A program made the position numbers and the translations under genes. A stretch of 64,000 nucleotides of DNA from Fibrobacter sp. UWB13 (GTDB lineage: Bacteria > Fibrobacterota > Fibrobacteria > Fibrobacterales > Fibrobacteraceae), in the NCBI RefSeq assembly GCF_900177805.1, contig NZ_FXAX01000002.1, positions 124,001 to 188,000 on the forward strand, read 5' to 3'. The notes under the pieces were generated by a model. It was not told where the DNA came from. It searched no databases and worked only from the letters and a program-made list of their open reading frames with translations. Below, piece after piece: positions 17,887 to 32,135 of this stretch. Numbering within the stretch: the first letter of the stretch is position 1; the number at the start of each line of letters is the position of its first letter.

Positions 17887-19752
17887 ATGCAAATTGTGCT
17901 CAACGCTCCATTCGCCGACAAAGAAAACGATTTGACAGATACCCTCTTCACGTTTTTATCGAATTCGCTTCGGGCAAGCGACATCACCATTATTGACAAC
18001 CAAAGCGAACTTGCCGCCGCAACGAACGGCCCAAACACATTCCTTATCAACGGAATAAGTTTCGCAGACGACACTCCCGAAGCCATCGATCAAGACGGCA
18101 ACCGCATCGACATCGCCATCGCATTCAATGACGATGCAAGCCGCCCCAGCGACAAAATCATCGAATTCGTCCAGAAATCATTCGCTGAATCCGGCCATTA
18201 CAACATTAGTATCAATCCGCCATTTATCAGCAGCGTTGTCGGATCGCCAGACTGCCCAACACTCACCATAGCATTCCGCCGCAACCTTTATCTTGACGCG
18301 GGCACGCACCGAATGCGCTCAACAGCGTATAAATGGAACCATTTGCTCAATAACATTTATCAAGGAATTGCGAGCAAAAACAAAACTACCGTCGTCGCAC
18401 AGAACAAAGAGCACCTCATCGAACTCATTAACAAAGCCATTGCAGAACATGGCCCAAATTGCGACCTGAATTTCATTGACGTCTCCAACGTGACCGACAT
18501 GAGTCGGCTCTTCTTTAATTCCAACTTCAACGGAGATATCAGCGGTTGGAATGTGTCCAACGTAACGGACATGTCGCACATGTTCTATTCGAACATTTAT
18601 AAGTACATGCGCTATCACAACACCCCTTTCAACGGGGATCTTAGCCGTTGGGACGTGTCCAAAGTCAAGAATATGGAAAGCATGTTTGAACAGTCCGCAT
18701 TCAACGGGGATATCAGCAAATGGAATGTATCAAGCGTGACCAACATGCACAAGATGTTTACCGACTCCGAATTCAGCGGAGACATCAGTCTGTGGGACGT
18801 TTCTAACGTTATCGACATGTCCGCCATGTTTGCCGGAAACAAAAAATTCTTGGGCGATATCAGCAAATGGAACGTATCGAAAGTCACGAACATGAGCGAT
18901 TTATTCTGGGGAACACCATTCAACGGAGACTTGAGCAAGTGGGATGTTTCTAGCGTCACCGATATGCATGGCATGTTCGAAAGATCCCTGTTCAACGGTG
19001 ACATAAGCGATTGGAATGTATCCAGCGTGATTAAGATGGGCGGCATGTTCAAAGGAAGCGCATTCAACGGCGACATAAGCAAATGGAATGTATCCAGCGT
19101 CACCGACATGCACGAAATGTTCTACAATTCAGAATTCAATGGAGATATCAGCAAGTGGAATGTTTCGAACGTGACCGACATGAGAGGGACATTCAGCGGT
19201 TCCGAATTCAACGGAGATATCAGTCATTGGAACGTCTCCAACGTGACCGACATGAAAGGAACTTTCAGCGGTTCCAACTTCAACGGAGACATAAGCAACT
19301 GGAACATCCGTAACGTAACTTGCATGAACTATCTGTTCAACGCTTCAAAATTCAATGGGGACATAAGCAACTGGAACGTGTCTAACGTCAAAAGCATGCA
19401 CGGCATGTTCTATGAAAGCGAATTTACCGGCGACATCAGCAAATGGAACACCTCGAACGTCACAGAAATGAGCAGCATGTTCAAGCAAAGCCTGTTCAAC
19501 GGAGACATCAGCGGGTGGGACGTTTCTAACGTAACAAACATGAACAACATGTTCTATGGAGCGAAATTCAACGGAGATATCAGTCATTGGAACGTCTCCA
19601 ACGTGACCGACCTCCACGAAATGTTCACCGCTTCAAAATTCAGCGGAGATGTAAGCGGTTGGAAATTCGCCCACAAGCCAAAATCCAAAAACGCATTCAA
19701 GGGAACATCTCTCGAAAGGGCAGGCAAGCTCCCGCCATGGTACAAGAAGTAG
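17887..19752 (+). CDS. BspA-like DUF285 repeat protein with unusual N-terminal domain
   Basis: This 621-residue protein has two parts. Residues 1-165 form a globular domain with a segment (NISINPPF, then [12 protein letters not shown]) that resembles the C-terminal half of N-formylglutamate amidohydrolases; this is inference. From about residue 195 to 600 there are 16 units of 24 residues of the DUF285/BspA type (consensus [16 protein letters not shown] plus six to eight variable residues), ending in a PPWYKK cap. Such repeats fold as an extended solenoid and often bind proteins or surfaces. No signal peptide is visible, which is unusual for this family. Confidence 0.85.
18475..19680 (+). repeat. 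72-bp tandem coding repeats
   Basis: Sixteen in-frame units of about 72 bases encode the DUF285 repeats. Two units (about 19205-19250 and 19563-19608) share an almost identical block beginning TTCAACGGAGATATCAGTCA, a sign of recent unit duplication or gene conversion. Unit 2 carries a 10-residue insertion. Confidence 0.85.
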
Positions 19753-19796
19753 AAAAATCTGGCAAAACATCATGTAAAGCGATTACAAAATCTTTG

Positions 19797-19816
19797 TTGT
19801 AAACTCTAATTTACAA
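19797..19816. promoter_or_regulatory. inverted repeat TTGTAAA-N6-TTTACAA
   Basis: A perfect 7 bp inverted repeat lies downstream of the BspA-like gene and 17 bases before the GTCA palindrome of the sigma-like module. A near-identical site with a 7-base spacer lies at 52781-52801 before the sugar porter gene. This suggests a shared regulator's operator; a weak terminator is the alternative. Confidence 0.45.
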
Positions 19817-19832
19817 ATTAAAACTTCTAACC

Positions 19833-19865
19833 GTCATGTTTTGACAGTCGGATTTTCTATCTTTG
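19833..19865 (+). promoter_or_regulatory. promoter/operator of sigma-like module 1
   Basis: GTCA-TGTTT-TGAC is followed by GTCGGATTTTC and TATCTTTG. The module 2 copy (25239-25270) has the same order: GTCAT.TT.TGACA, CGG.TTTTC, TAT.TTT. The palindrome sits where a -35 element would be and the TAT.TTT as a -10. Confidence 0.6.
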
Positions 19866-19876
19866 TTTTTGAAGAT

Positions 19877-19972
19877 ATGAGAGTATTTGAATTTTTCTCC
19901 GTCGCTTTCTCCGGCACCAAAACCTTGAGTGCCTCGCCCGCTACCGCTCCAACACTCGGATCGGCCACATAA
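19877..19972 (+). CDS. leader small ORF of module 1 (31 aa)
   Basis: The ORF reads MRVFEFFSVAFSGTKTLSAS and ends TLGSAT. The paralogous module carries a 33-residue ORF at the same place that shares M-R-x4-F-S-(V/I)-x-F-S-(G/S). Several differences in the shared part are silent (TCC/TCT, TTC/TTT), hinting that the peptide is translated. The ATG lies only about 12 bases after the putative -10, so the message would be nearly leaderless. Role unknown: leader peptide or signalling peptide are both possible. Confidence 0.4.
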   Translation: MRVFEFFSVAFSGTKTLSASPATAPTLGSAT

Positions 19973-19999
19973 ATAAAAATATATACGCCTTTTTTGCCT

Positions 20000-20015
20000 T
20001 TTGATAATAATCAAA
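20000..20015 (+). promoter_or_regulatory. leader hairpin of module 1
   Basis: TTTGAT, loop AATA, ATCAAA, then GGGTGTTTT and GTCGTCTT. The equivalent at 25410-25429 keeps the stem (TTTGATA/TATCAAA) with a different loop and the following GGGCGTTTT. A conserved stem with a changing loop suggests a functional RNA structure before the regulator gene. Confidence 0.5.
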
Positions 20016-20089
20016 GGGTGTTTTCTGTCGTCTTTTCACCACCATCGCCATCCAAAACAACCCAAGTATCACCCAAAGGAAGCCACCAC

Positions 20090-20796
20090 ATGACAAACAC
20101 CAACAACGCCGCCATCAACAACCTCATCGCCATCGCCCAGACCGCCGCAAACGAGGACATCCGCAACAAGGCCATCAACGAGCTCTGGGACCTCTACGGA
20201 GACCAAATCGCCGGTATCATGGCCGGAAAATCCTTCCAGATGGACTCAGACTTCAGCCTCAAGGGCTACAGCCCCAAGGAACGTCAGGACAGCCTGCTGG
20301 CAATGCCTACTACCTGTTCTACAACGCCGTAGCCACATTCAACCCGTCCCTGGGCGTTCCGTTCATCGCCTACACCACCCAGAAGAGCAGCTGGTTCCTC
20401 GCCACCGAAAAGCGCAACAACACCAAACACAGCAAGCGCGAAGAATTCGTGGACTTCTCCCTGGAATGCGGCCCCAGCACCGAATGCACCCCCGAAGCAT
20501 CCCGCATGATGGAAATTTTCAAGGGGATCGCCCACAACGACAGCATCGAAAACGACTGCTACTGGGAAGATGCAGTCCAGGTCCTCAGCCACGCCATCCA
20601 GAATTCTCCCAAGCTGAGCAAGTACTTCGAAGCCAGCCTGGAAGTCTGTAAGGAAGGCGATGACTACAGCGACGCCAACGTCGCAAGATACATGGGTTGC
20701 ACCCGCGCATGCGTCGGACAGTACCGCAAGGCGCTCCTCCGCATGATGGAAGAAAACGGTCTGTCTGCAGAATTCAACCAGCTCATGGCCGCGTAG
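20090..20796 (+). pseudogene. sigma-70-like regulator, frameshifted (module 1)
   Basis: The ATG at 20090 (AAGGA upstream) opens a frame that is the paralogue of the intact gene at 25483-26193. After SPKERQDSLLA the frame runs into nonsense and stops at 20332, while the matching sequence continues in the -1 frame from about 20302 as GNAYYLFYNAVATFNPSLGV and on to EFNQLMAA at 20796. The region 2-like and region 4-like (NVARYMGCTRACVGQYRKA) parts are both recognisable. No slippery heptamer is present at the switch, so I read this as a one-base deletion (or a sequence error), not programmed frameshifting. Confidence 0.75.
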
Positions 20797-20898
20797 CAGT
20801 CGCGAGGGGATTCGGGCGGGGGAAAAGTTCAACATTCCCCCAAAAAGCAAATACAAAAGAAGAAACCGTTCTATTACAAAACAGTTCTATCAGAAATT

Positions 20899-22059
20899 TC
20901 AAAAAGGCTTCACTATACGGAAACCTAATTTTTGAATCACCTCAGAAATTGTTCTTTCAGAAGATATCGCCCACTCTTCAAGAATACTCTTAATGTTATT
21001 TTCTTCATTAAACAGCAGCTTCTTTATCCTCGCCCTGAAATGCCCATCTATTACATCGTTCATTTTGTTATTTAGAATTGAAAAAAATTCTTCTCGTAGA
21101 ACAGGAAATATTTTTAGAGCCATTTCTAGATAAAGAGAAGTTTCACTCTTTGTCGGAATCAACCCAGCAAGTTCCAAAGTTCTTAAAGGATGTAAATAAG
21201 GTCCCGCTCCCGGTCCAGAACTTATAAAAGGCCACTTAGAACATTGATGAAAACGGACCTCTCGAAATTCCACTTTTTCTAAAAAAGTTTGTTCCGCCAT
21301 AATCATATACATAAAGATTATCGAAAACATGATATTTTCGGTAGCATCGTCTCCTGGACGTCCGTCTTCCCAACGATCGTTAACGCCATCATAAATATAC
21401 AGAATTTCAACGAATCCTTCGTCATCCTTTGCTGATTTGAAATACCGCTTTAATTGCCCGAGAAACTTTTGTCTATAATAAAAAGAAAATATTTTAGAAT
21501 TAAAGACAATTCCTGTGAGGCCTGTTGAAGGTTTATATTGTCGATATAATATACGTAGCGTTTCAAAAAGACTGTGACGAATATATCCTACAATGAAATT
21601 CTTATCAAAAAATTCTTTTTTAAAGCCATCAGATTGATATGAGTTGAAGAACGGCTCAAGCCTTTCTATCACAAATTGCAGAACCATGGGTGCCACATCC
21701 AGAATATCTTCAATTTCTTTTATTTGGTTTATCTCTCGTTTGATACCAGATCTTTCTAGAAATGACTCCAATAACTTAAAGTCTGCATTGAAAATCATCC
21801 AATTGACGCCTAATTCATACATTAACTTTATAGCCGAGTCTCTACTCCATTTTTGTTCTAAACATACCTGTATAGCATAAAAAGAAGCTGTAAGAGAGAC
21901 AAATATTACCCATTCTTTATGATTACGCCTAGACGGGAAGCAGCCTCCCCAAGGGGACAACCTACCATTTTCAAAATACCCCTTCAGATCCTTTGAAAAG
22001 CATTCACTGTAATACGCCTCAATTTCGTTGATAGAGTATTCTGTTGTCATAATCACCAT
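20899..22059 (-). CDS. hypothetical protein (about 386 aa)
   Basis: A helix-rich soluble protein with no signal peptide; aromatic and charged residues dominate and no known motif is seen. A hydrophobic stretch near the middle (IMFSIIFMYMIMAE) might be a buried helix or one membrane pass. The start is uncertain between ATG 22059 and ATG 22050. Codon use is A/T-rich compared with the metabolic genes, suggesting acquired DNA. It is convergent with the frameshifted sigma-like gene and divergent from the 22256 gene. Confidence 0.65.
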   Translation of the reverse strand: MVIMTTEYSINEIEAYYSECFSKDLKGYFENGRLSPWGGCFPSRRNHKEWVIFVSLTASFYAIQVCLEQKWSRDSAIKLMYELGVNWMIFNADFKLLESFLERSGIKREINQIKEIEDILDVAPMVLQFVIERLEPFFNSYQSDGFKKEFFDKNFIVGYIRHSLFETLRILYRQYKPSTGLTGIVFNSKIFSFYYRQKFLGQLKRYFKSAKDDEGFVEILYIYDGVNDRWEDGRPGDDATENIMFSIIFMYMIMAEQTFLEKVEFREVRFHQCSKWPFISSGPGAGPYLHPLRTLELAGLIPTKSETSLYLEMALKIFPVLREEFFSILNNKMNDVIDGHFRARIKKLLFNEENNIKSILEEWAISSERTISEVIQKLGFRIVKPF

Positions 22060-22255
22060 ATCTTTTAAAACATATTATGCATTCTTACAACAATATACAA
22101 AATGAGATTGATCTTTCATAAACAAAAAACAGCCCAAACATCATCTAAAGACCTTTTAAGTTTGTTAATCATAATAAATTTTTAAAAATTCATTTTACAC
22201 TTACGACTTTGCCTACGATAATAATTACAGAAGGCACAAACAAGGAGAACGCCTC

Positions 22256-22696
22256 ATGAAAAAGTACCAGATTGCAAACGCCCGCGTAGATCAGTGCAGC
22301 GGCGGCCCGGACCCAGCAATTTTCGTCGGAGAAGTCGAACTTAAAACAACGAAAGGAAAACCGTTCTTTTTCACCATCACCGAATGCGATGGAATGCCGA
22401 TGATTTTCAAGACAGACTCATCCGTATTCGACTGGTGGATGGATCAAGACACTTATTCCGACGAACTCGACAAATTACAAGAAGCCGGCGCTCTGTACGA
22501 AAGCGACGGTTACTCCGAGCTGTTCGAAAACCACGACGATATCGAATGCTACGAAAGCCTGCGTTACCTCATTTACCTGATCCGCACCAGCTGGGAAGAA
22601 ATGGAAGCGTTCATCGCACAAACGAAGGGCAAGTTCCTCGACGAGATTGAAATCCCGAAGTCAGATGTCGAAAAGGAATGGGAAGAAAGTGCGTAA
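22256..22696 (+). CDS. hypothetical acidic protein (146 aa)
   Basis: A good ribosome binding site (CAAGGAG) precedes the ATG. The product is acidic and soluble with no signal peptide. The N-terminal half looks like a small beta domain (FVGEVELKTTKGKPFFFTIT), the C-terminal half is helical (YLIYLIRTSWEEMEAFIAQT). No family recognised. Single gene next to the IS200-type element. Confidence 0.7.
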   Translation: MKKYQIANARVDQCSGGPDPAIFVGEVELKTTKGKPFFFTITECDGMPMIFKTDSSVFDWWMDQDTYSDELDKLQEAGALYESDGYSELFENHDDIECYESLRYLIYLIRTSWEEMEAFIAQTKGKFLDEIEIPKSDVEKEWEESA

Positions 22697-22732
22697 GGTT
22701 TATTAACAAGGAAATCTTCGACAATACAAAAA

Positions 22733-23432
22733 GGAACCCACCGGCAAAGCCGGTGGTTCTTCATATGCGGGCCCTGCCCTAGGATACTAGCCACGCGTCA
22801 CGTCGCGTCGGTCAATCCGCCACTTGCGAATTGTCCTTACCGGCGGCCCGTAAACGGGCTATAGTTTTCCCAGCATTGTCAACTGTTCTCCGTACTGGTC
22901 TTCCTTCAGCTGATTTTGAATATACGTTGCAATCCTTGCCGTATTTTTACCAGTCGTGTCAACATAGTAGCCGCGACACCAAAATTCCCTGTTACGGTAT
23001 TTGAACTGGAGTGATTTGTACTTTTCGTAGATCATCAGGCTACTTTTCCCTTTCAAGTACCCGACAAAACCCGAAACGCTCACTTTGGGTGGAATCTCGA
23101 CCAACATGTGAACGTGATCCGGGCAAACCTCAGCCTCCAAAATATTGACCTGTTTCCATTCGCAAAGCTTTCTCAGGATTGCTCCGATTTCGACCTTTTT
23201 CTCCCCATAAAAGACCTTCCTTCTAAATTTGGGAGCAAACACAATATGGTATTTGCAGTTCCACGATGTATGAGCCAATGTGTTATTATTTCTATTATTC
23301 ATTTGAAATCCTTTGATTTTATTGTTATGCAGTTGGCAGACCGCATATCAACAGTAATCAAGGGATTTCTTTTTATCCGAGGGCGCAACGCCAGAAGGCT
23401 CTTTTGAACCACCAGCCTAGCTGGTGGTTTTC
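22733..23432 (-). mobile_element. IS200-type insertion sequence
   Basis: A Y1 transposase gene is flanked by imperfect palindromes typical of IS200/IS605 ends: CCACCGGC AAA GCCGGTGG at 22738-22756 and AACCACCAGC CTA GCTGGTGGTT at 23407-23429. No TnpB is present. About 100 bases of structured DNA lie between the left hairpin and the tnpA stop. Exact end points are not certain. Confidence 0.8.
22859..23302 (-). CDS. tnpA: IS200-type transposase (Y1 tyrosine HUH)
   Basis: The 147-residue protein is a full-length TnpA of the IS200/IS605 family, which moves single-stranded DNA by 'peel-and-paste'. The HUH motif is in CPDHVHMLVEIPP, the N-terminus has the usual KYHIVFAPKFRRKVF, and the catalytic tyrosine is probably in TARIATYIQNQ. 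The frame is intact and both end hairpins are present, so the element may be active. Confidence 0.93.
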   Translation of the reverse strand: MNNRNNNTLAHTSWNCKYHIVFAPKFRRKVFYGEKKVEIGAILRKLCEWKQVNILEAEVCPDHVHMLVEIPPKVSVSGFVGYLKGKSSLMIYEKYKSLQFKYRNREFWCRGYYVDTTGKNTARIATYIQNQLKEDQYGEQLTMLGKL

Positions 23433-23441
23433 ATTTATACA

Positions 23442-23466
23442 AAAAGGAACGCACAGCGTTCCTTTT
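23442..23466 (-). terminator. terminator of the 24144-23490 gene pair
   Basis: AAAAGGAACG, loop CACAG, CGTTCCTTTT; on the minus strand it is followed by a T run. It directly abuts the IS200 right end. Confidence 0.8.
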
Positions 23467-23489
23467 GTTGCATTCTTCAATATTTTCCC

Positions 23490-24131
23490 CTAGAACCCCA
23501 GCCCGTCCTCCCCACATCCGTACTGTTCCGCTTCTTTCGCGGCATCGTACAGAGCGAGTTCATCGAGCGTGGCGTAAATACGATTTTCATCCACGTTATC
23601 AAGCAAAAAGTCAGCCTGAATCGAGATGGCATCGCTATCCAGGTTGCAAATGACATCGCAGACTCGCCGCCTCTGCTCAAGAGAAAGACAATTAAAGGCA
23701 ACCCCAATAGACGACGAAGTGTCGCCCTCCAAACGGGTGAAATTCACCCCCATGCTATTGCAGATCGCCGTGCGGAGTTCTTCGCGCATATTTGCCAAAC
23801 GCTTCAAACTTGTTGTCCAGCTCATCTTGGGGAACTGCGAGACATACCGATCCAGACGTTCCCTGATGTAAGGCACACTCCAATCAGCGAGTCCGTCCTT
23901 CCCGACATAAAATGTTTCTACGGGATAGCCCTCCCGCATGTAATCGACGTCCACACTGACGACATCGCGCCTATAAGGGTCCACGAACATCTTGCCCTCG
24001 TTATCGCGGAACGGGAAATCCACTGTTTTCCCGTTAGTCTTGATTTTGACACGGATGTCGTACGCCGGGTGGAGCGCCAACAGCATTTGTTCCACCTCGC
24101 CGCATATCCAGCGTTTTTTACCGAAAAGCAT
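23490..24131 (-). CDS. hypothetical protein (213 aa)
   Basis: An AAAGGAG ribosome binding site precedes the ATG. The protein is soluble, with a beta-rich N-terminal half (YDIRVKIKTNGKTVDFPFRD) and a helical C-terminal half. No motif recognised. It starts 12 bases after the stop of the FISUMP-like membrane protein and so forms a two-gene operon with it, ending at the terminator at 23442-23466. Confidence 0.7.
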   Translation of the reverse strand: MLFGKKRWICGEVEQMLLALHPAYDIRVKIKTNGKTVDFPFRDNEGKMFVDPYRRDVVSVDVDYMREGYPVETFYVGKDGLADWSVPYIRERLDRYVSQFPKMSWTTSLKRLANMREELRTAICNSMGVNFTRLEGDTSSSIGVAFNCLSLEQRRRVCDVICNLDSDAISIQADFLLDNVDENRIYATLDELALYDAAKEAEQYGCGEDGLGF

Positions 24132-24143
24132 AGGTTCTCCTTT

Positions 24144-25043
24144 TTACCGATACAGATACGGCAATTGTCTCATATTGTTGTAATACGTAGTCATATTCGA
24201 TTTCTGGCTATCCATCATGTGGTTCGGATCGTCAATACGGATGCAGCGGATTGGGTAATAATAATCCTGTTTCAAGAGGATACCTCTCATGGTTTCCTTA
24301 ATCCCATCTTGCTGTTCTTTCGTGTAACTGTTCGGCACAATCACAGTCGGGAACCCATCACTCGTCCAGACGACGCTCAGGGAGTCCACTAATTCCATAG
24401 AATCCTTCTCGTTATTGTAAAACCCGGACAGGTTCAGTTCAACCGTATCGACCCACCCATAAGTCTCTTCGTGCAGGTGAGCACGCAAACGTTGCAGGCC
24501 ACTCGGGTCCAAAGAATCAACAACCTTAGTAGGGCTAAATGTCGGCCAATACATCAAATGCCCCTTTGGGGAGAAAAACAGCCCCGCATTCTGCTCCGCC
24601 GAGGCGATTTTCCAGCCCGCAGGACACGCGTTGAGCCGCCCTATAGAAGAATAATAGCGCCCTCGTTCGCAAGTGGAATCCAGGCAGAAACTGCAATGCG
24701 TCTTGTATCGCAAATTTTCCAGCATCAAGTGGAAAGTCACGGTATCACCACCCGCCACAAAGCCCGAATCGTGTTCCGACATGTCGCAGCCAGTATACCC
24801 AGCATACTTCAGCACTATATATTCATTGCTGTCGCGCGGGTCCACAAAGGTCTCGAGCTTCTGAAAATAGTAGCTATCAATATCCTTTTCAGGACAATGC
24901 GCATAATTATGGGGAGTTTTCCACGAAATCTCTAGCCTGCCGGACACCAATGCACCCACGACATACCAGAAAGCCATCACGATTAGCAACAAGCCCAAAG
25001 GCTGGCCGAAAATTTTATAAGAAAAGATTTTAAAGAATTTCAC
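24144..25043 (-). CDS. membrane-anchored FISUMP-like protein
   Basis: I start at GTG 25043, which has a perfect GGAGG seven bases upstream; the longer ATG frame at 25094 lacks one. After a short cytoplasmic segment there is a membrane anchor (GLLLIVMAFWYVVGALV), then a FISUMP-like domain: FVDPRDSNEYIVLKY, VTFHLMLENLRYKT, ACPAGWKIASAEQNAG and the terminal IRCIRI. The core FISUMP motifs are present but diverged, with cysteine pairs (CSFCLDSTC) that could form disulfides outside the cytoplasm. Forms an operon with the 213-aa gene downstream. Confidence 0.75.
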   Translation of the reverse strand: MKFFKIFSYKIFGQPLGLLLIVMAFWYVVGALVSGRLEISWKTPHNYAHCPEKDIDSYYFQKLETFVDPRDSNEYIVLKYAGYTGCDMSEHDSGFVAGGDTVTFHLMLENLRYKTHCSFCLDSTCERGRYYSSIGRLNACPAGWKIASAEQNAGLFFSPKGHLMYWPTFSPTKVVDSLDPSGLQRLRAHLHEETYGWVDTVELNLSGFYNNEKDSMELVDSLSVVWTSDGFPTVIVPNSYTKEQQDGIKETMRGILLKQDYYYPIRCIRIDDPNHMMDSQKSNMTTYYNNMRQLPYLYR

Positions 25044-25238
25044 TCTAACCTCCAAAGAAGCGTACACAATGATATCGAATAATCTCAGCCACATGTAAAT
25101 ACGGCACGCAAAAAAAATTTCAACTTTTCCCAGTTTACTTTTTCACATCAGCAATCGATATATAACACGGATATGATTTGGACGTCTACACTCTTCAATC
25201 TCAAAAGTTTAGAAAACTTTACAAAAGAAATTTTCGGC

Positions 25239-25270
25239 TGTCATATTATGACATACCGGTTTTCTATATT
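25239..25270 (+). promoter_or_regulatory. promoter/operator of sigma-like module 2
   Basis: The perfect palindrome TGTCATATTATGACA (25239-25253) is followed by TACCGGTTTTC and TATATTTAG. It matches the arrangement in front of module 1 (19833-19865). Confidence 0.65.
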
Positions 25271-25277
25271 TAGGAGC

Positions 25278-25379
25278 ATGAGATTGAATAAGATTTTCTC
25301 TATTCGTTTTTCCAGCGCATTGAACAGCGCAACACCGGTTTTCGTCTATATAGGTCCAGCAAACGGCTTGACCAAATAA
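25278..25379 (+). CDS. leader small ORF of module 2 (33 aa)
   Basis: The ORF reads MRLNKIFSIRFSSALNSATP and ends ANGLTK. It shares its position and the M-R-x4-F-S-(I/V)-x-F-S pattern with the module 1 ORF (19877-19972). The ATG lies directly after TAGGAGC, too close for normal Shine-Dalgarno use, and about 8 bases after the putative -10, so it would be leaderless. Translation is unproven. Confidence 0.4.
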   Translation: MRLNKIFSIRFSSALNSATPVFVYIGPANGLTK

Positions 25380-25409
25380 ACAACATTTCAGCAATTCACG
25401 CCATAGTCT

Positions 25410-25429
25410 TTTGATAAAAAACTATCAAA
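25410..25429 (+). promoter_or_regulatory. leader hairpin of module 2
   Basis: TTTGATA, loop AAAAAC, TATCAAA, then GGGCGTTTT and GCCGTCTT. The structural equivalent in module 1 is at 20000-20015. Confidence 0.5.
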
Positions 25430-25482
25430 GGGCGTTTTGCCGTCTTGTCTCAAAATTTTCAACTTCCCAAAGGAGCTTGCTT

Positions 25483-26193
25483 ATGCAGCACAACAACACC
25501 AAGGCTACCGCCGCCCAGATCAACAACCTCATCGCCATTGCCCAGGCCGCCCCGAGCGAATACGCCCACGACAAGGCAATGTACACCCTTTGGGACATCT
25601 TCGGGGACTACGTCATGGCACTCGTCGCCAAGAACTCGTTCCAGATTTGCTCCGATTTTAACCTCAACGGCTGCAGCCCCAAGGAACGCAAGGCCAACCT
25701 GGCCGGTGACGCCTACATGGTCTTCTGCAAGGCTGTACAGGATTTCAACCCGACCTTGAAAGTTCCCTTCGAAGCGTTCTTCGCCCAAAAAATCAGCTGG
25801 CACATGGCTGACGAAAAGCGCAAAAACGCCAAGCGCGACAAAGTCGAAAAAGCCGAAAGCAGGCTGAAAAAAAACGATGACGAAGCCGACTCCATCATTG
25901 ACAACGGCGATATGAACCCATTCACCGGGGAACGCAACGTGCTCGAAAGCGACTACGAACAGTGCGAAATCATCGACATCATCAGGCACCGCCTCGCCAA
26001 CAGCCCCAAGATGCTCAAGGCATTCGACACCATGTACGAGGTGAGCCGCAATTGCGACAAGTACACCGACGTCGAAGTCGCCGAAGCGCTGCACTGCACC
26101 CGCGCCAACACGGGAAAGATCAAGAAGAACATTTGCAAGTTTTTGATTGACTGCGGGCTCGAAGACGAATGCCGCCTCCTCATGGCGGCGTAA
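25483..26193 (+). CDS. sigma-70-like regulator (module 2)
   Basis: The ATG at 25483 follows AAAGGAG. The 236-residue product opens like sigma region 2 (INNLIAIAQAAPSEYAHDKA) and continues with GDAYMVFCKAVQDFNPTLKV and FEAFFAQKISWHMADEKR, which match the order of sigma-70 region 2.1-2.4. A charged linker follows, and the C-terminus has a helix-turn-helix like region 4 (DVEVAEALHCTRANTGKIKK). It is probably an alternative sigma factor or a derived regulator. The conserved upstream palindrome suggests autoregulation, which is inference. No anti-sigma gene is adjacent. Confidence 0.75.
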   Translation: MQHNNTKATAAQINNLIAIAQAAPSEYAHDKAMYTLWDIFGDYVMALVAKNSFQICSDFNLNGCSPKERKANLAGDAYMVFCKAVQDFNPTLKVPFEAFFAQKISWHMADEKRKNAKRDKVEKAESRLKKNDDEADSIIDNGDMNPFTGERNVLESDYEQCEIIDIIRHRLANSPKMLKAFDTMYEVSRNCDKYTDVEVAEALHCTRANTGKIKKNICKFLIDCGLEDECRLLMAA

Positions 26194-26242
26194 CGCCTAG
26201 TCAATAACGTAAAATTCCATAGTAACCTCCTAGTTGAAAAAG

Positions 26243-26270
26243 CCCGGTGGCCGTCAGGTCATCGGGTTTT
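26243..26270 (+). terminator. terminator of the sigma-like gene
   Basis: CCCGGTGGCC, loop GTCA, GGTCATCGGG, TTTT. It follows the sequence CCTCCTAGTTGAA, as does the terminator at 28181-28214. A third relative is at 29286-29317. Confidence 0.85.
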
Positions 26271-26291
26271 GTCATAGTAAAATGCGCCTTA

Positions 26292-26320
26292 TTGACTTTC
26301 CTTTTGCCTATTCATATATT
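26292..26320 (+). promoter_or_regulatory. sigma-70-type promoter of the candidate RNA
   Basis: TTGACT, 17-base spacer, TATATT. The start point would be near 26327. No ORF begins behind it before 26646. Confidence 0.6.
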
Positions 26321-26326
26321 TATCCT

Positions 26327-26541
26327 CGTATTTCGACAATCCTCGTGACAGTCGGCATAGGCCTATGGCCCGTACGTGCATCCGCGACGAGGCGCATCCA
26401 CATTCTTGTAGATGTTGTTGGATAGCTGGCAGGAGAAACAGCCTGCTCGAGTGCGCAGATTAAACTGCGCCAAGTAACGCCGAGGAAAACCCTCGCCAAC
26501 AGCACCGCAAGAGCATCCCATTTCCACGCGAATCGTGGAAA
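26327..26541 (+). ncRNA. candidate structured RNA
   Basis: This gene-free stretch is far more GC-rich than the flanking intergenic DNA and holds a chain of stems: CCTCGT pairs with ACGAGG, CATAGGCCTATG is a palindrome, ATCCA pairs with TGGAT, GCAGG with CCTGC, GCGCAG with CTGCGC around ATTAAA, CGAGG with CCTCG, and TTTCCACG with CGTGGAAA. A promoter-like site lies just upstream. I see no match to RNase P, tmRNA, 6S or a known riboswitch. The end point is approximate; no U-run terminator is visible. Confidence 0.45.
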
Positions 26542-26602
26542 TTTCCCAAGAACAAGACAAAAATCAAATGAACCATATTCATTTGATATATTGCAATACG
26601 TA

Positions 26603-26631
26603 TTGACATCAGTCTATACATTTTCTATAAT
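26603..26631 (+). promoter_or_regulatory. perfect consensus sigma-70 promoter
   Basis: TTGACA, exactly 17 bases, TATAAT, 15 bases before the DUF4258 gene. Such a fully consensus promoter is what a self-repressed toxin-antitoxin operon often has. Confidence 0.8.
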
Positions 26632-26645
26632 AAAGAGGGTAATAG

Positions 26646-26888
26646 ATGAATATTACAAAACACGCTTTTGAAAGAATGCGTGAAAGAGGCTTTACCGTAG
26701 AAATGCTTGGAAAAGTACTGCGGAGAAAAGACCTAGTACGGGATCCATCCGATAAAGAAGGTGTATCTAAAATCACATCCGAAGTTGACAATCATTTTTG
26801 GACATTAATTGTTTCTGACGATTTAAAAACTTTGATAACCGTAAGGAGAGCTCATGAAGATGAAGAGAAAAAAGCCCGAAAAGGTTAA
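26646..26888 (+). CDS. DUF4258-family protein, probable toxin
   Basis: The 80-residue basic protein begins MNITKHAFERMRERGFTVEM, the DUF4258 start in which a helix with HAxxRMxxR precedes a small beta sheet (TLIVSDDLKTLITVRRAHED). DUF4258 proteins resemble the RelE/BrnT-type small ribonuclease toxins. The next gene, a ribbon-helix-helix-like protein, overlaps it by 35 bases, the usual layout of a type II toxin-antitoxin pair with the toxin first. Toxicity is inferred, not shown. Confidence 0.72.
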   Translation: MNITKHAFERMRERGFTVEMLGKVLRRKDLVRDPSDKEGVSKITSEVDNHFWTLIVSDDLKTLITVRRAHEDEEKKARKG

Positions 26889-27189
26889 ACTGCCCAAGGG
26901 TTTCAAGCTGGTTGATGATTTTCTTTCTAAGGAAGAAATTGAGGCTCTTGAAAACGACACCACAATGAGAGATCCGATAATCATCACCGGAGGACACGAG
27001 TCGGAAACTATCGAGGAATCCATAGCACGCATCAGCCGTGCCATAGCCGAAGCCAAGGAAGAAAAGAAAATGTATTCCATAAGGCTCAAGGTCAAAACAG
27101 TGGACGCAATCAAACGCAAAGCTGCAGCCGCAGGCATTCCATATCAAACCTATGTAAATGTATTGCTAGACAACGCCGCCTCAGCTTAG
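26854..27189 (+). CDS. CopG/BrnA-like antitoxin
   Basis: The 111-residue protein starts at an ATG with AAGGAGAG upstream, inside the end of the toxin gene. The charged N-terminal and central parts (KLVDDFLSKEEIEALEN and a helix rich in Glu/Ala) would wrap the toxin, and the C-terminus MYSIRLKVKTVDAIKRKAAA followed by IPYQTYVNVLLDN is a ribbon-helix-helix DNA-binding domain. It probably neutralises the DUF4258 toxin and represses the shared consensus promoter. Confidence 0.75.
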   Translation: MKMKRKKPEKVKLPKGFKLVDDFLSKEEIEALENDTTMRDPIIITGGHESETIEESIARISRAIAEAKEEKKMYSIRLKVKTVDAIKRKAAAAGIPYQTYVNVLLDNAASA

Positions 27190-27198
27190 AGAATCATC

Positions 27199-27225
27199 AA
27201 ATCGTCAGCCACCGGCTGGCGATTT
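27199..27225 (+). terminator. terminator of the toxin-antitoxin pair
   Basis: AAATCGTCAGCC, ACC, GGCTGGCGATTT with one G-T pair, followed by further T. It also lies beyond the end of the convergent 27245 gene. Confidence 0.88.
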
Positions 27226-27244
27226 TTTCACATGGCGAAAAAAT

Positions 27245-27856
27245 TCATCCCCAATACCCTAGCCCGAAAAACACAAGGAAAACCGGAAGGATAAAAATCC
27301 ACACGCCCTGAAAATAATGCTCCAGGTCTGAATTGCTCATCGTGGAATGATCAATCAGCGAAATGACCAAATACCAAAGCCCGACGTAAGCCCAAACAGA
27401 GTGAGTCCCTGCAAAGATATACTTAAGCAACACATAGCCAAGTACAAATCCGACAACTGTCGGAGCCACTGCGGTTAACGAATGCTGCACAGCCTCCATG
27501 AACCATGGCCCCCTCGTACGGTAACTGATGTGGCCTAGGCGCCCACCATCATTTTCGAACATGCAGACTTCATTCACTTCCGCCCCTGTAATTACAGCGA
27601 ATATCAAATGAGACATCTCATGCACAAACGTCCCCGGAAACGTCACAAAATTCACGAAAAAGTACGCCAAATCGCGATTGAGCGACCCGATGAGCGACAC
27701 TTGCAAACGTTCAAGCCCAAATAAAATCAGCCCCGCAATGACAGGAGCCAACAAAACGACTATCGTCAAAACGGCACTGACAGCAGCAATGGCGCCGGGG
27801 CCATTCCCCCAGCCAAACCAGGCGACAACTTGAGCCATCGAAGGAAGCGCTACCAT
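27245..27856 (-). CDS. integral membrane protein with HExxH-type zinc motif (M50-like)
   Basis: Starting at ATG 27856 (GGAGG five bases upstream), the 203-residue protein has about five hydrophobic segments. The motif FVHEMSHLIFA in the second half of a membrane segment is an HExxH metallopeptidase signature, and GGRLGHISYRTRGP follows, as in M50B-like membrane proteins. It may be an intramembrane protease. A second zinc ligand motif of the NPDG type is not obvious, so activity is uncertain. Confidence 0.68.
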   Translation of the reverse strand: MVALPSMAQVVAWFGWGNGPGAIAAVSAVLTIVVLLAPVIAGLILFGLERLQVSLIGSLNRDLAYFFVNFVTFPGTFVHEMSHLIFAVITGAEVNEVCMFENDGGRLGHISYRTRGPWFMEAVQHSLTAVAPTVVGFVLGYVLLKYIFAGTHSVWAYVGLWYLVISLIDHSTMSNSDLEHYFQGVWIFILPVFLVFFGLGYWG

Positions 27857-28032
27857 GAAAACCTCCAAAAACACATATATAATAATATCGAAAAATCATA
27901 TTTGGGAGTAAACATGTTAAGCGTCAAATGAAAAAACAGCCCTTAACACTACCATTTTTTCTTTTTTGAGCTTTACATTCACTAGTTTCATTTCGATATA
28001 TAAGTAGAAACAACAATTAAAAGGAGTCCAAC

Positions 28033-28149
28033 ATGGCACGCACAAAGACTTACACCACCAAAGACGGCACAATAATTCTCCGCTACACAAAAGAAAAGAC
28101 TGTCATCTACAAAAACGGCAGGTGCTACGCCACAAAGGGTTGCAAGTAA
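28033..28149 (+). CDS. small basic protein (38 aa)
   Basis: A perfect AAGGAG lies seven bases before the ATG, the frame has good codon use, and a terminator follows 30 bases after the stop, so this is very probably a real small gene. The product MARTKTYTTKDGTIILRYTK continues to a cysteine-containing tail (GRCYATKGCK). Strongly basic, without hydrophobic segment; possibly nucleic-acid binding or a peptide. No family recognised. Confidence 0.7.
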   Translation: MARTKTYTTKDGTIILRYTKEKTVIYKNGRCYATKGCK

Positions 28150-28180
28150 AAAAGTCCTTAGCCTACCTCCTAGTTGAACG

Positions 28181-28214
28181 AAAAGCCCGGTGACCTTTGG
28201 ATCATCGGGCTTTT
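28181..28214 (+). terminator. terminator of the 38-aa gene
   Basis: AAAAGCCCGGTGA ... TCATCGGGCTTTT, preceded by CCTCCTAGTTGAA as at 26222-26236. Confidence 0.9.
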
Positions 28215-28294
28215 ATACACTTGGCTCTAAAAATTTTTGACAAACAGACATCTTTGATTTATCTTTTTGAAAAACAAGAAGGAATATTACCGTT

Positions 28295-29215
28295 ATGTCA
28301 TACGACATCAACACATATTGGAATAGTCTTGCCTACTCAGCAGGCAACCTAAAGAACCCCATCTACAAGTGGAGCTGTTTTAGTAACGCAAGCATAAACG
28401 AACTAAACGACTACATCCAAGATATCACAGAACAGTTGAATTCGTACGACTATTCTAAAGCCATATATCGATATGACGAAGATCGTGACACCTACTACAA
28501 AACAGGAACACCTATTGAAGCAAAAATTTTTGCAACCCTATTCCTGATTCGATGCGCACTTATCAACAGATGCTCTGATGACTGGGACCTCACGATTAGA
28601 CCAGAATACACCTCTGAAATCGGCCTTGATGATTTAAGTTCTAGCCAATGGGCATCCTTAATAAACACCGCAGAAAGTGTATTAGGAAGACCTCCCCTAG
28701 CACAAGACAACAACGCGTTCCACTACTGCGCACGCATTCTTGTTGAATCAGGCATTCCTCTAAGAGCCCTGCAAAATCCCAAATCCAAAATAGTAGAGGG
28801 ATTAAGAAGCATTTGGATTTTTCGCAATAGCATTCCCAATATCAGCGCATACAGCAAAGCAAAGAAAGATTTTGAGTCTACGGGAGTCTTAATGAAAAGA
28901 ACGGGATTCGTTTCACAAGTTCTTCCTCTACCGGGCGGTCGCAACGGATGCAGAGAATTCTTCGACACAGGATTAAACTTACTTGAACGAGCAATCGCTA
29001 TGCAGAAAAATGCAAGCAGTAACTTGGATGGCGTAACACTTTTCAAGAAACTTGGTTTCGAAAACCCCTCGCAACAAGCAATCGATTACATTTTCAATCT
29101 TAAAGATCAAACAAACATTCCACAGACCACATCCGATACGACAGACAAGAAAAAAGTCAGCCATCCAAGAATCCACAGAAAAATTTCTTTCACCTGGAAA
29201 GGAAAGATGCCCTAA
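28295..29215 (+). CDS. hypothetical protein (306 aa)
   Basis: A soluble, helix-rich protein with no signal peptide. Its central part is IEAKIFATLFLIRCALINRC and the C-terminus is basic (KKKVSHPRIHRKISFTWKGK), which could contact nucleic acid. No family recognised. It is convergent with the defence island's helicase gene and has its own terminator, so it may be a neighbour rather than a component. Codon use is A/T-rich like the island. Confidence 0.7.
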   Translation: MSYDINTYWNSLAYSAGNLKNPIYKWSCFSNASINELNDYIQDITEQLNSYDYSKAIYRYDEDRDTYYKTGTPIEAKIFATLFLIRCALINRCSDDWDLTIRPEYTSEIGLDDLSSSQWASLINTAESVLGRPPLAQDNNAFHYCARILVESGIPLRALQNPKSKIVEGLRSIWIFRNSIPNISAYSKAKKDFESTGVLMKRTGFVSQVLPLPGGRNGCREFFDTGLNLLERAIAMQKNASSNLDGVTLFKKLGFENPSQQAIDYIFNLKDQTNIPQTTSDTTDKKKVSHPRIHRKISFTWKGKMP

Positions 29216-29285
29216 GCTTAAGCGACACGGCTATATTAAACGCCGACATAATAAGTTCGAAATTTTCATTTTCTCTAGATTATTG

Positions 29286-29317
29286 AAAGCCCGGTGACCA
29301 TCTGATCATCGGGTTTT
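29286..29317 (+). terminator. terminator of the 306-aa gene
   Basis: AAAGCCCGGTGA ... TCATCGGGTTTT, third member of the terminator family seen at 26243 and 28181. Confidence 0.88.
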
Positions 29318-29351
29318 ATAATCATTATGACTTATTCATTTGTAAAACATC

Positions 29352-32135
29352 TTACCATTTGGCATTCTCTGTTTCGAAATACTTTATGATAGATTCATTT
29401 CCATCTGCAGTTGTCATAGTTGCAGCAAGATGACTTGCAGCACGTGACACGCCTACATAAAGATTTCTTCGCATCAACTCATTGGATTTTCCCTGAATTG
29501 CAGTGTCAATGTCATAGAAGAACGCAGCCTCAAATTCCATACCCTTAATCTCAGACAATCTGAAGACTCGGACAACTTCCTTCGAATCAAGAGTTTTGCC
29601 TCCCGTACAATCCACGACATCAATTCCTTTTAGGATATATGTATCTTCAATTTCCTCAATAAATTTCCCGACATCAACATCATCACCAACAAAAATTGCG
29701 ATAGATGGTAAAAGGTCGTATTTCTTATAAATATCCAAAATACGTTTACAAATCCATTCAACCTTTTGACTCATATCGTCACTAATCATCAAAATCGGTT
29801 TAGCGTCATCTTCCATTTTAATTTTTTTACTGTTGTATGCGGGATATTCACCAAGGCTGTCCTTGTAAAGATCCCTAGCCATATCAACAAGAGTCGGAGT
29901 TTGTCGATAACTGATATTCAGGGAGAACACTTCAAGATTCGGGAAAAGATCTCTTAACTCTTCCCAACTTTGAATTCCGTTTTTACGCATTCCCTGCATC
30001 AGATCACCGCTCAATGTAATCGATGAAAAATCATAGAAGCGGAATGATATCATACAATAATAATCCATCAACGTATAGTCCGTGGCTTCGTCAATACCAA
30101 TAATCGGACGACAAAATTCCTTATACGCCTTCGCTGATTTACCCTTCAATTCAAGAAACCTAGCTCTAAACTTGCGTCCAAAGGCATTGCTAAATGTGTA
30201 AAGAGCATTATTAACAAGCCCTATTAAAAGATTTTGCTCATCCGCATGCAGACATCTATTGCTATCCTTTCTGATTATTTTTTCAAGAAGCGCATTGTTG
30301 TACATTGAATCATTTTGCACAAGCATCTCTTTACGGAACAGCTTATACATTTGCGGAATTTTATTGATGAATAAATTTTCCGTACCACGACTAAAAGATG
30401 TAAAAATTTTAGAAAACAGTACATATTCGCCAATATTTTTCAGCGATTCTTCATCAACGGACTGTTCAATAAACGGCTCTACAATTTTATAGAGTTCCTG
30501 TTGGCGCCCTCTAATTCGTGCATTAGCGTCAACTTTTTTCAAGCCAATATTACGAATAAGTTTACGAACATTCGTATAAAGTTCAGTATCAAAATCAATT
30601 CGTTCTGCTTCTGATGATTCATCGTTTTCTTCAAGAACATCATCAGCAGCATCTTCGTCAGCATCATTATGCCACTGAGAGAACAAGTCCCTCAAGGAAG
30701 CCGAAACAGCATCATCTTTCATAATAGAACGCTTAACAGCAACTGAAAGGTCTTCAAGTTCTTCTTTAAGGATATCTTCTACAGATTTTACCGAATCATC
30801 ACGCTTTTCATAAAGCGCTTCTAAAAGCCGCATCAAAGAATTCAAATCAACAACATCATTCTTTTGGCAAATTTCCTTAAGATCCTTGGCTTCTCTAGAC
30901 CACACATAATCAGACACGTCTAAGGATACAATCTTGTCGCGTTTTTGTTTAATCTGGTCAATACAGAATTTTTCAAATGCGTCTATAGCTAATTTCGGTT
31001 GAAGAATGAGCAAGTCCCCGCTCCTATCCTTCCACTCAATAAATCTCGGATTTGCCGGATCTATGATGCCATATTCACGAAGCATCACCTTACGAAAACG
31101 TTCTATTGTACGAGTATTCGTTTCATTTGCATTTAGTTCTTCTTCATGCATATTATGACGAAGGAACTGAAGCAAAAGATCCGTCGGAGAAAAGAACAAC
31201 CATTGCTGGCTCCAGCGATGAGGATCATCGAAACGGCTTAGTTGATTATCAGAAAGTGGGGCTTCATATTCTTTTAACGACTCTTTGGAAAGTAAAAATT
31301 TTAATCTTTGAATGACCGTTGTAGTCTTACCAGTACCTGGTCCGCCATCAATAACAATAGGAATGCCATCATAAATATGTGAACGTTTCGCGTCTTCTTG
31401 ATACGGATCAAGAATATGCTGCGAACGGAGCATTACATTTTTATGAAGAATGTCTCTCTGTTTTTTAATATTTTCTTCCGCAGCAGCAATATTCTGTTGT
31501 ATGCGAGCAATTTCTTCTCTCCGTTCCCTTGCGTCCTGTTCTCTTTGAATTCGTTCCGCTTCAAGGCGAGCGCGTTCAGCCTCTTCAGCTCGAGCCTTCG
31601 CTTCAGCCTCTTCCTGTCTTAAACGTTCTTGTTCTCGTTGGAGAGCTTCCAGCTGATCCTGTTTTTCTTGAAGCTTAGCTTCCTCGCCCGCTTTAAAAGC
31701 AAGCAACTCATTCAATGAAGAATAGACATAATGATTTGCATCGCCAGCAAGACTAATCTGAACATCCTCAGCATTTTCACCAAAAGGCACATACACAGCA
31801 CGATTCACGGGCCTTACCGTTTTTATGCCTTTAGGGGCCTTATATTGAGTATCTACGCCCAACTGGCCAATCAAAGCTCTACCCAATAGTGTATTCTTAT
31901 ACACAGTTGTTCCAATATTCGGCTGAGCTTGCATACCAACAATTGTGGTTACATTACCAACGAAGTCATGTCCAAACTTAACAGTTTCATTCGCTTTGTT
32001 GGTCAAAAAATACGTAACATCGCCACCAGCTCTTTCACAATACACTCTTGCAACAGCACGGTTAGAATAGCCCTTGCTAAATTCATCACAAAGACGCTCT
32101 TTAATATTTTTCGCAATACCAATGATATCTTCCAT
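29352..32135 (-). CDS. SF1 (UvrD/Rep-like) DNA helicase with coiled coil
   Basis: The 927-residue protein has an N-terminal domain of about 145 residues, a long Glu/Arg-rich coiled coil (about 147-235) and then an SF1 helicase core. Walker A is GGPGTGKTT (264-272), Walker B is IGIDEATDYTLMDY, motif III ITLSGDLMQGM, motif IV SYRQTP, and the C-terminal motif VAVSRA-like segment is YVGVSRAASHLAA. It lies at the 3' end of the defence island, 123 bases behind the HNH gene and after a hairpin, so it may have its own promoter. Probably translocates or unwinds invading DNA. Confidence 0.9.
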   Translation of the reverse strand: MEDIIGIAKNIKERLCDEFSKGYSNRAVARVYCERAGGDVTYFLTNKANETVKFGHDFVGNVTTIVGMQAQPNIGTTVYKNTLLGRALIGQLGVDTQYKAPKGIKTVRPVNRAVYVPFGENAEDVQISLAGDANHYVYSSLNELLAFKAGEEAKLQEKQDQLEALQREQERLRQEEAEAKARAEEAERARLEAERIQREQDARERREEIARIQQNIAAAEENIKKQRDILHKNVMLRSQHILDPYQEDAKRSHIYDGIPIVIDGGPGTGKTTTVIQRLKFLLSKESLKEYEAPLSDNQLSRFDDPHRWSQQWLFFSPTDLLLQFLRHNMHEEELNANETNTRTIERFRKVMLREYGIIDPANPRFIEWKDRSGDLLILQPKLAIDAFEKFCIDQIKQKRDKIVSLDVSDYVWSREAKDLKEICQKNDVVDLNSLMRLLEALYEKRDDSVKSVEDILKEELEDLSVAVKRSIMKDDAVSASLRDLFSQWHNDADEDAADDVLEENDESSEAERIDFDTELYTNVRKLIRNIGLKKVDANARIRGRQQELYKIVEPFIEQSVDEESLKNIGEYVLFSKIFTSFSRGTENLFINKIPQMYKLFRKEMLVQNDSMYNNALLEKIIRKDSNRCLHADEQNLLIGLVNNALYTFSNAFGRKFRARFLELKGKSAKAYKEFCRPIIGIDEATDYTLMDYYCMISFRFYDFSSITLSGDLMQGMRKNGIQSWEELRDLFPNLEVFSLNISYRQTPTLVDMARDLYKDSLGEYPAYNSKKIKMEDDAKPILMISDDMSQKVEWICKRILDIYKKYDLLPSIAIFVGDDVDVGKFIEEIEDTYILKGIDVVDCTGGKTLDSKEVVRVFRLSEIKGMEFEAAFFYDIDTAIQGKSNELMRRNLYVGVSRAASHLAATMTTADGNESIIKYFETENAKW

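Follow-up and report, generated by a model that had tools for sequence, protein, structure and literature searches.

In attenuators of the trp and his type, a short ORF with its own ribosome-binding site and a run of regulatory codons stands at the start of the transcript, and it is followed by a terminator-like hairpin with an alternative antiterminator and by a biosynthetic operon as the regulated unit. Structured 5' leaders and riboswitches, as collected in Rfam, end in an expression-platform terminator. The leader described here, from the cellulose-degrading rumen genus Fibrobacter, resembles the trp/his type in having a short ORF at the predicted transcript start, a terminator-like hairpin and a gene that would be regulated; it differs in that it has no regulatory codon run, no visible ribosome-binding site for the ORF and no identified antiterminator, and in that the gene is sigma-like instead of a biosynthetic operon. 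It shares with the Rfam cis-regulatory families a set of possible hairpins, the last of them terminator-like, and an exclusive association with one gene family. However, no aptamer-like conserved core was recognised, and Rfam covariance models run over positions 18000-30000 at E <= 1 gave no match except STnc490 beside an insertion sequence. The downstream gene itself resembles the sigma-70 family (ECF-like, FliA/WhiG-like) through weak similarity to TIGR02937, Sigma70_r2, WhiG and sigma factors of phages, but it differs from that family in scoring under the curated cut-offs and in occurring only within the genus among the genomes sampled.

The locus and its downstream gene

The window is the whole 64,000-nucleotide stretch of DNA that was analysed (G000:C2:124001-188000), part of a Fibrobacter genome of 3.8 Mb. 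It contains the two leader ORFs named in a preliminary description, and each precedes a sigma-like gene:

25278..25379, + strand: leader ORF, 33 codons plus stop, 33 aa, open in 12 of 12 alignable homologues
25483..26193, + strand: sigma-70-like gene preceded by this leader, 236 aa, with profile matches
19877..19972, + strand: paralogous leader ORF, 31 codons plus stop, 31 aa
20090..20796, + strand: sigma-like paralogue, reading frame disrupted by a frameshift near 20295

The frameshift in the paralogous gene marks either a pseudogene or an assembly error; promoter and leader look intact there. A near relative of the locus, with 88% protein identity, lies within a Fibrobacter succinogenes MAG.

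The 236-aa protein matches TIGR02937 at 24.9 bits (E 1.3e-5), below the curated cut-off of 42.9, and a Pfam search of it gave no sigma match. Within the sigma-like family, 3 of 14 members touch Pfam Sigma70_r2, and the family profile finds WhiG at E 7.3e-4. The downstream gene is predicted to be sigma-70-like, weakly so. Relatives were present in 12 of 60 genomes sampled, all 12 among the 37 that belong to the genus, and none was found in the 23 sampled genomes of other genera; a profile search detected sigma-like genes in 28 of 80 genus genomes. The family thus appears to be restricted to the genus. A recent viral source was considered and rejected: a scan of IMG/VR returned 270 pattern matches and no relative, and a phage collection gave four Rhizobium phage records, whose sigma factors show 30-31% identity to the 236-aa protein over 40% of the query.

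Several other features lie nearby in the window. A surface protein at 17887-19752 matches the PARCEL repeat model TIGR02167 in 13 stretches. At 22859-23429 on the minus strand is a transposase that we take to be IS200-like, with the STnc490 match adjoining it, and at 24147-25094, also on the minus strand, is a FISUMP-domain protein (TIGR02145, E 7.9e-8, below the cut-off). Downstream, positions 26646-27189 hold a toxin-antitoxin-like pair, a DUF4258 protein followed by a CopG/BrnA-type antitoxin, and three similar terminator-like repeats, AAAGCCCGGTG...ATCGGG (family D10), occur at 26239-26275, 28182-28218 and 29286-29322.

The profile search yielded 52 matching places, of which 32 leaders entered the folding, terminator and start-frame counts. 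Left out were places with no recognisable promoter (e.g. L020 and L037, where a palindrome-type promoter was not found), places without a leader (L036 and L060), one-gene repeats and others; L061, L062 and L034 served in the comparison of upstream layout, outside the 32-leader counts. In L036 and L060, a palindrome promoter is followed after about 33 nt by the sigma-like gene itself, and neither a leader nor a terminator-like hairpin intervenes. By eye, a frame similar to the FISUMP protein lies upstream of the L036 sigma-like gene. Twelve leaders, from 11 of the 80 genus genomes, can be aligned with the window ORF and are called class 1; they form cluster A (L002, L006, L007, L027), cluster B (L009, L018, L022, L030, L059) and cluster C (L003, L010, L031). 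The L017 and L022 leaders are identical, and one was kept for the counts. The class-1 ORF has 33 codons in 10 copies and 31 in 2.

Promoter

Many of the relatives share an upstream arrangement: a palindrome, TGTCA-N5-TGACA (or TGACA/TGTCA variants), then TATATT and a short leader, with a hairpin ahead of the sigma-like gene. In the window these upstream elements are as follows:

25218..25223, + strand: half-site TTTACA, located 47 nt 5' of the -10-like hexamer
25239..25253, + strand: operator-like palindrome TGTCATATTATGACA in place of a -35 box, from the promoter comparison
25265..25270, + strand: TATATT, the predicted -10 element by sequence reading, from which the transcript start is deduced
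19833..19846, + strand: paralogous operator-like palindrome GTCATGTTTTGACA, from the promoter comparison

The ATG lies 7 nt (25278) or 13 nt (19877) past the -10-like hexamer, which agrees with the earlier remark that translation would start almost at the predicted transcript start. A longer ORF from 25173 (68 aa) was rejected, as it would cross the promoter elements and no such frame was seen in the cluster B loci listed; the same frame is open in all four cluster A loci.

Across promoters, the TGTCA-N5-TGACA palindrome stays put, 26-27 nt before the hexamer. The spacing of TTTACA varies by subfamily in one-helical-turn steps: it lies 46-48 nt (7 promoters), 58-59 nt (9) or 69-70 nt (4) upstream of the hexamer, and it is absent in 17 of 37. 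Because these positions are one helical turn apart, we infer a DNA-binding activator that acts on one face of the DNA. Another palindrome, GTAA-N6-12-TTAC, occurs in the promoters of 9 of the 32 leaders, compared with 0.87 in shuffles. In the genome that holds the window (G000), the palindrome-plus-hexamer pattern is found at 8 sites, the leader promoter included, and the reversed control gave none; one of the 8 precedes a gene that, from its sequence, is presumably radA-like. The pattern suggests a wider regulon. Sites of a longer form of the pattern also occur in G030, G033 and G086, genomes without a sigma-like match; thus, the factor that binds the palindrome is probably not the sigma-like family itself.

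Leader RNA structure

Four hairpins can be drawn in the leader, three within the ORF and one beyond it, and the last has a counterpart in the paralogous leader:

25280..25300, + strand: P1, possible stem GAGA...TCTC near the 5' end, pairs in 11-12 of 12, almost invariant
25315..25330, + strand: P2, hairpin GCGC...GCGC in the middle of the ORF, a hairpin there in 12 of 12, single-sequence P 0.006-0.41
25353..25373, + strand: P3, hairpin GGTC..GACC over the last codons, P <= 0.032 in 10 of 12
25406..25433, + strand: P4, terminator-like hairpin with G and TTTT after it, 36 nt 5' of the sigma-gene ribosome-binding site
19995..20020, + strand: paralogous P4, terminator-like hairpin followed by TTTT, from folding and a consensus scan

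P4 at 25406-25433 folds at -10.5 kcal/mol, and 0 of 40 shuffles were equally stable; a simple consensus terminator scan calls the paralogous P4 at 19995-20020 but does not call this one. In all 12 class-1 leaders, the best hairpin-plus-T site either is P4 or contains it (-6.6 to -11.0 kcal/mol), and P4 beats the shuffles at P <= 0.05 in 6 of the 12 (40 shuffles each). Over all 32 leaders, the best such site reaches P <= 0.05 in 13 (again 40 shuffles each). L008, L011, L032 and L035 carry strong predicted T-tract terminators of -12.5 to -21.3 kcal/mol, with 4 of 4 at P <= 0.05.

The part of the ORF from codon 11 to the stop is more stable than the dinucleotide-shuffled mean in 12 of 12 copies (z -1.2 to -3.3), and it reaches P <= 0.05 against codon-order shuffles in 6 of 12. 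Folding of the whole ORF is less clear, with z from -2.2 to +0.1 and unremarkable values in several copies, and single-sequence folds of the leaders differ between clusters. Covariation was not seen, since P1, P3 and P4 are nearly constant across the aligned sequences: with RNAalifold on alignment A3, both sides showed some change in 2 of 16 pairs, and pair counts on alignment A4 gave 0 of 19 pairs changed on both sides. In cluster C, P2 and P3 lie in another register; thus, their agreement rests on position and fold, not on covariation. The hairpins P1-P3 inside the ORF are moderately supported. No antiterminator for P4 was identified in the leader folds. One candidate pairing, drawn by eye, would join the 5' arm of P4 to the ribosome-binding site of the sigma gene.

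Reading frame and peptide

The ORF frame is open in all 12 class-1 copies, and none of them has a frameshift in it, the event named beforehand as evidence against the peptide; both other sense frames are interrupted by stops in every copy. In 11 of 12, the in-register antisense frame is open as well. By column shuffle, the chance of all 12 being open is P 0.0074, and it is P 0.057 among shuffles that are open in the two window copies, that is, conditioned on discovery. Within clusters A and B, gaps occur in the ORF in 0 of 16 pairs and in the stretch from its stop to the sigma gene in 14 of 16. Considering all classes, an ATG or GTG is found <=19 nt from the -10-like hexamer in 26 of the 32 leaders, and 6 of the 32 have no near-start frame; in leaders other than class 1, frame length ranges from 2 to 31 codons and the encoded peptides are mostly dissimilar (e.g. 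MTKI, VRTTF, MSISRNTSSLLA). The frame is perhaps kept, and its translation may be significant.

The case for selection on the peptide had been built on the two window copies. Both do share the motif M-R-x4-F-S-(I/V)-x-F-S-(S/G), and the codons for Ser-8 and Phe-11 do differ silently between them; however, these two silent differences are no test, because a codon change at an agreeing residue is silent by definition. The two leaders can be aligned as DNA along their length, and the 14 differences over their first 13 codons fall 7/2/5 at codon positions 1/2/3. Among the 12 class-1 copies, the full motif is present in 6 and, minus its last residue, in 8, and five residues are invariant across the nine distinct peptides compared (9 of 12). 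Third-position changes, also named beforehand among the possible contrary signs, are no commoner than changes at positions 1 and 2, and the differences are spread evenly (e.g. 4/3/4, 6/3/4, 5/5/3).

Selection on the peptide as a whole did not hold up: both pN/pS and the column-shuffle test are negative for the ORF and positive for the adjoining sigma gene. The leader ORF has pN/pS of 0.59-1.22, a ratio that is defined for 13 of 15 pairs and less than 1 in 11 of these, compared with 0.15-0.47 for the sigma gene in 12 within-cluster pairs examined, of 16; in three between-cluster pairs, the sigma gene gives 0.84-1.08, values that are saturated. The coding test, a column shuffle that scores conservative codon change, gave the leader ORF P values of 0.29 in cluster A, 0.21 in B, 0.38 in two cluster C copies and 0.19 in A+B. 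As a control, 32-codon windows of the sigma gene from the same loci were run for A, B and A+B, with P < 0.05 in 10 of 26 windows for A, where power is low, in 23 of 24 for B and in all 24 for A+B. The coding test is thus sensitive enough for B and A+B, and the leader ORF does not pass it. The suggestion of a secreted signal is likewise unsupported: no hydrophobic core was seen (in four representative peptides, 11-residue Kyte-Doolittle means peak at 1.05-1.45), and the distant leaders do not retain most of the peptide. Over its full length, the peptide shows no sequence conservation and probably has no independent function.

The first codons form an exception, with a nominal signal. All of the following values are post hoc: codons 2-8 of the 12 leaders reach P 0.094 (uncorrected) and, after adding L008 (MRMNEIFSPP), P 0.033 (13 leaders); codons 2-7 with L008 and L021 reach P 0.052 (14 leaders); and with L011, L032 and L035 (MRMKEF, VRVKEF, MRVMEF) among 17 leaders, codons 2-6 reach P 0.0075. 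For the three class-2 leaders, codons 2-22 reach P 0.0245 (uncorrected). From codon 9 onward, the coding test on A+B gives P 0.21. Part of the first-codon stretch overlaps the possible P1 stem. The start of the ORF may be constrained (M-R-x-x-E/D-like), as translation initiation might impose.

Linkage to the sigma-like gene

A covariance model built from the 12 leaders was run over the 80 genomes under stricter filters, with which weak matches can be lost. It matched the 12 training copies (by construction) and, weakly, the L008 leader (E 0.3); all 13 lie directly 5' of sigma-like genes, and no free-standing copy away from such genes was found in the 80 genomes under these filters. Leaders and genes do not always share their nearest relative. 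The L027 ORF differs from that of L002 at 1 of 99 positions, and their sigma genes differ at 47; the sigma gene and 3' leader of L027 are nearest to L007, with 26 differences and 2 of 107, respectively. Similarly, the ORFs of L009 and L018 have 5 differences in 99 positions, with a sigma pS of 0.36. In L027, the middle part of the leader ORF has apparently been swapped between alleles independently of the sigma-like gene. From these comparisons, leader segments seem to have been exchanged apart from their genes.

Discussion

Part of the original leader claim stands: the ORF lies directly 5' of the gene and near the predicted transcript start, its frame is open in 12 of 12 copies, and its first codons carry a nominal signal; selection on the whole peptide is the part that falls. 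We propose, with slightly more confidence than doubt, that the ORF is the 5' part of a cis-acting attenuator-like leader of the sigma-like gene, and that the peptide is probably functionless. The mechanism would be as follows. The sigma-70-like gene would have an mRNA leader of ~200 nt, with the ORF as its first ~100 nt, and transcription would start just before or at the ATG, from the palindrome promoter. In this promoter, TGTCA-N5-TGACA would replace the -35 box, and TTTACA, further up in some subfamilies, would point to a DNA-binding activator. The leader RNA may then fold into the small hairpins P1-P3 in the ORF and the terminator-like P4 before the sigma ribosome-binding site. P4 would halt part of the transcripts, and read-through would thereby set the sigma output.

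It is possible, although we consider it rather unlikely, that the leader senses its own translation, so that the passage or stalling of a ribosome, and not most of the peptide, chooses between P4 and an alternative fold while the amino acids drift. An open frame flanked by stopped sense frames in all 12 copies, the gap-free ORF within clusters A and B, the whole-codon difference between 31 and 33 codons, the ATG or GTG near the start in 26 of 32 leaders and the nominal coding signal in the first codons are all consistent with this. However, the openness reaches only P 0.057 after conditioning, with the in-register antisense frame open in 11 of 12, and the inferred transcript contains no visible ribosome-binding site for the ORF. 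The distant leaders have very short frames or none, the peptides, read directly, show no run of one amino acid's codons, and no alternative fold was identified. A more specific version, which we find doubtful, is a lineage-specific attenuator whose frame is open, whose start is constrained and which is otherwise free, where ribosome passage gates transcription and leaders recombine independently of their genes.

That the peptide itself is functional and under selection, either as a leader peptide with a conserved start or as a secreted signal, is improbable in our judgement. The pN/pS is near neutral beside a constrained sigma gene, and the whole-ORF coding test is negative where the control is positive, as it is for codons 9 onward of A+B; the motif shared by both window copies and the five invariant residues in nine peptides speak for it, and pN/pS does fall below 1 in 11 of 13 pairs, with first-codon signals of P 0.0075-0.094 and P 0.0245 in the three class-2 leaders. 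Yet the full motif is kept in just 6 of 12 copies and is lost in the distant leaders, the four peptides scanned have no hydrophobic core, and no copy was found away from sigma-like genes in the 80 genomes. The same linkage bears on a last alternative, for which we see very little chance: that the leader, terminated at P4, works in trans as a stable small RNA, and that the sigma gene is expressed by read-through. Such an RNA would have its own promoter, a terminator-like end and possible hairpins, and the L027 leader, with an ORF part like L002 and a sigma gene and 3' leader like L007, looks as if the pieces were separately exchanged; but in 80 genomes, under the stricter filters, there was no copy without an adjacent sigma-like gene.

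In the part of the literature covered by a narrow search, we recognised no description of a unit that combines the palindrome promoter with an attenuator-like leader. The attenuator-like reading corrects a plausible small-protein call: the two window copies pointed to conservation, which the twelve copies, compared alongside an internal control, do not show for the peptide as a whole. Also described here is a putative regulatory unit in Fibrobacter, in which a palindrome promoter and an attenuator-like leader stand before a sigma-like family that appears to be restricted to the genus.
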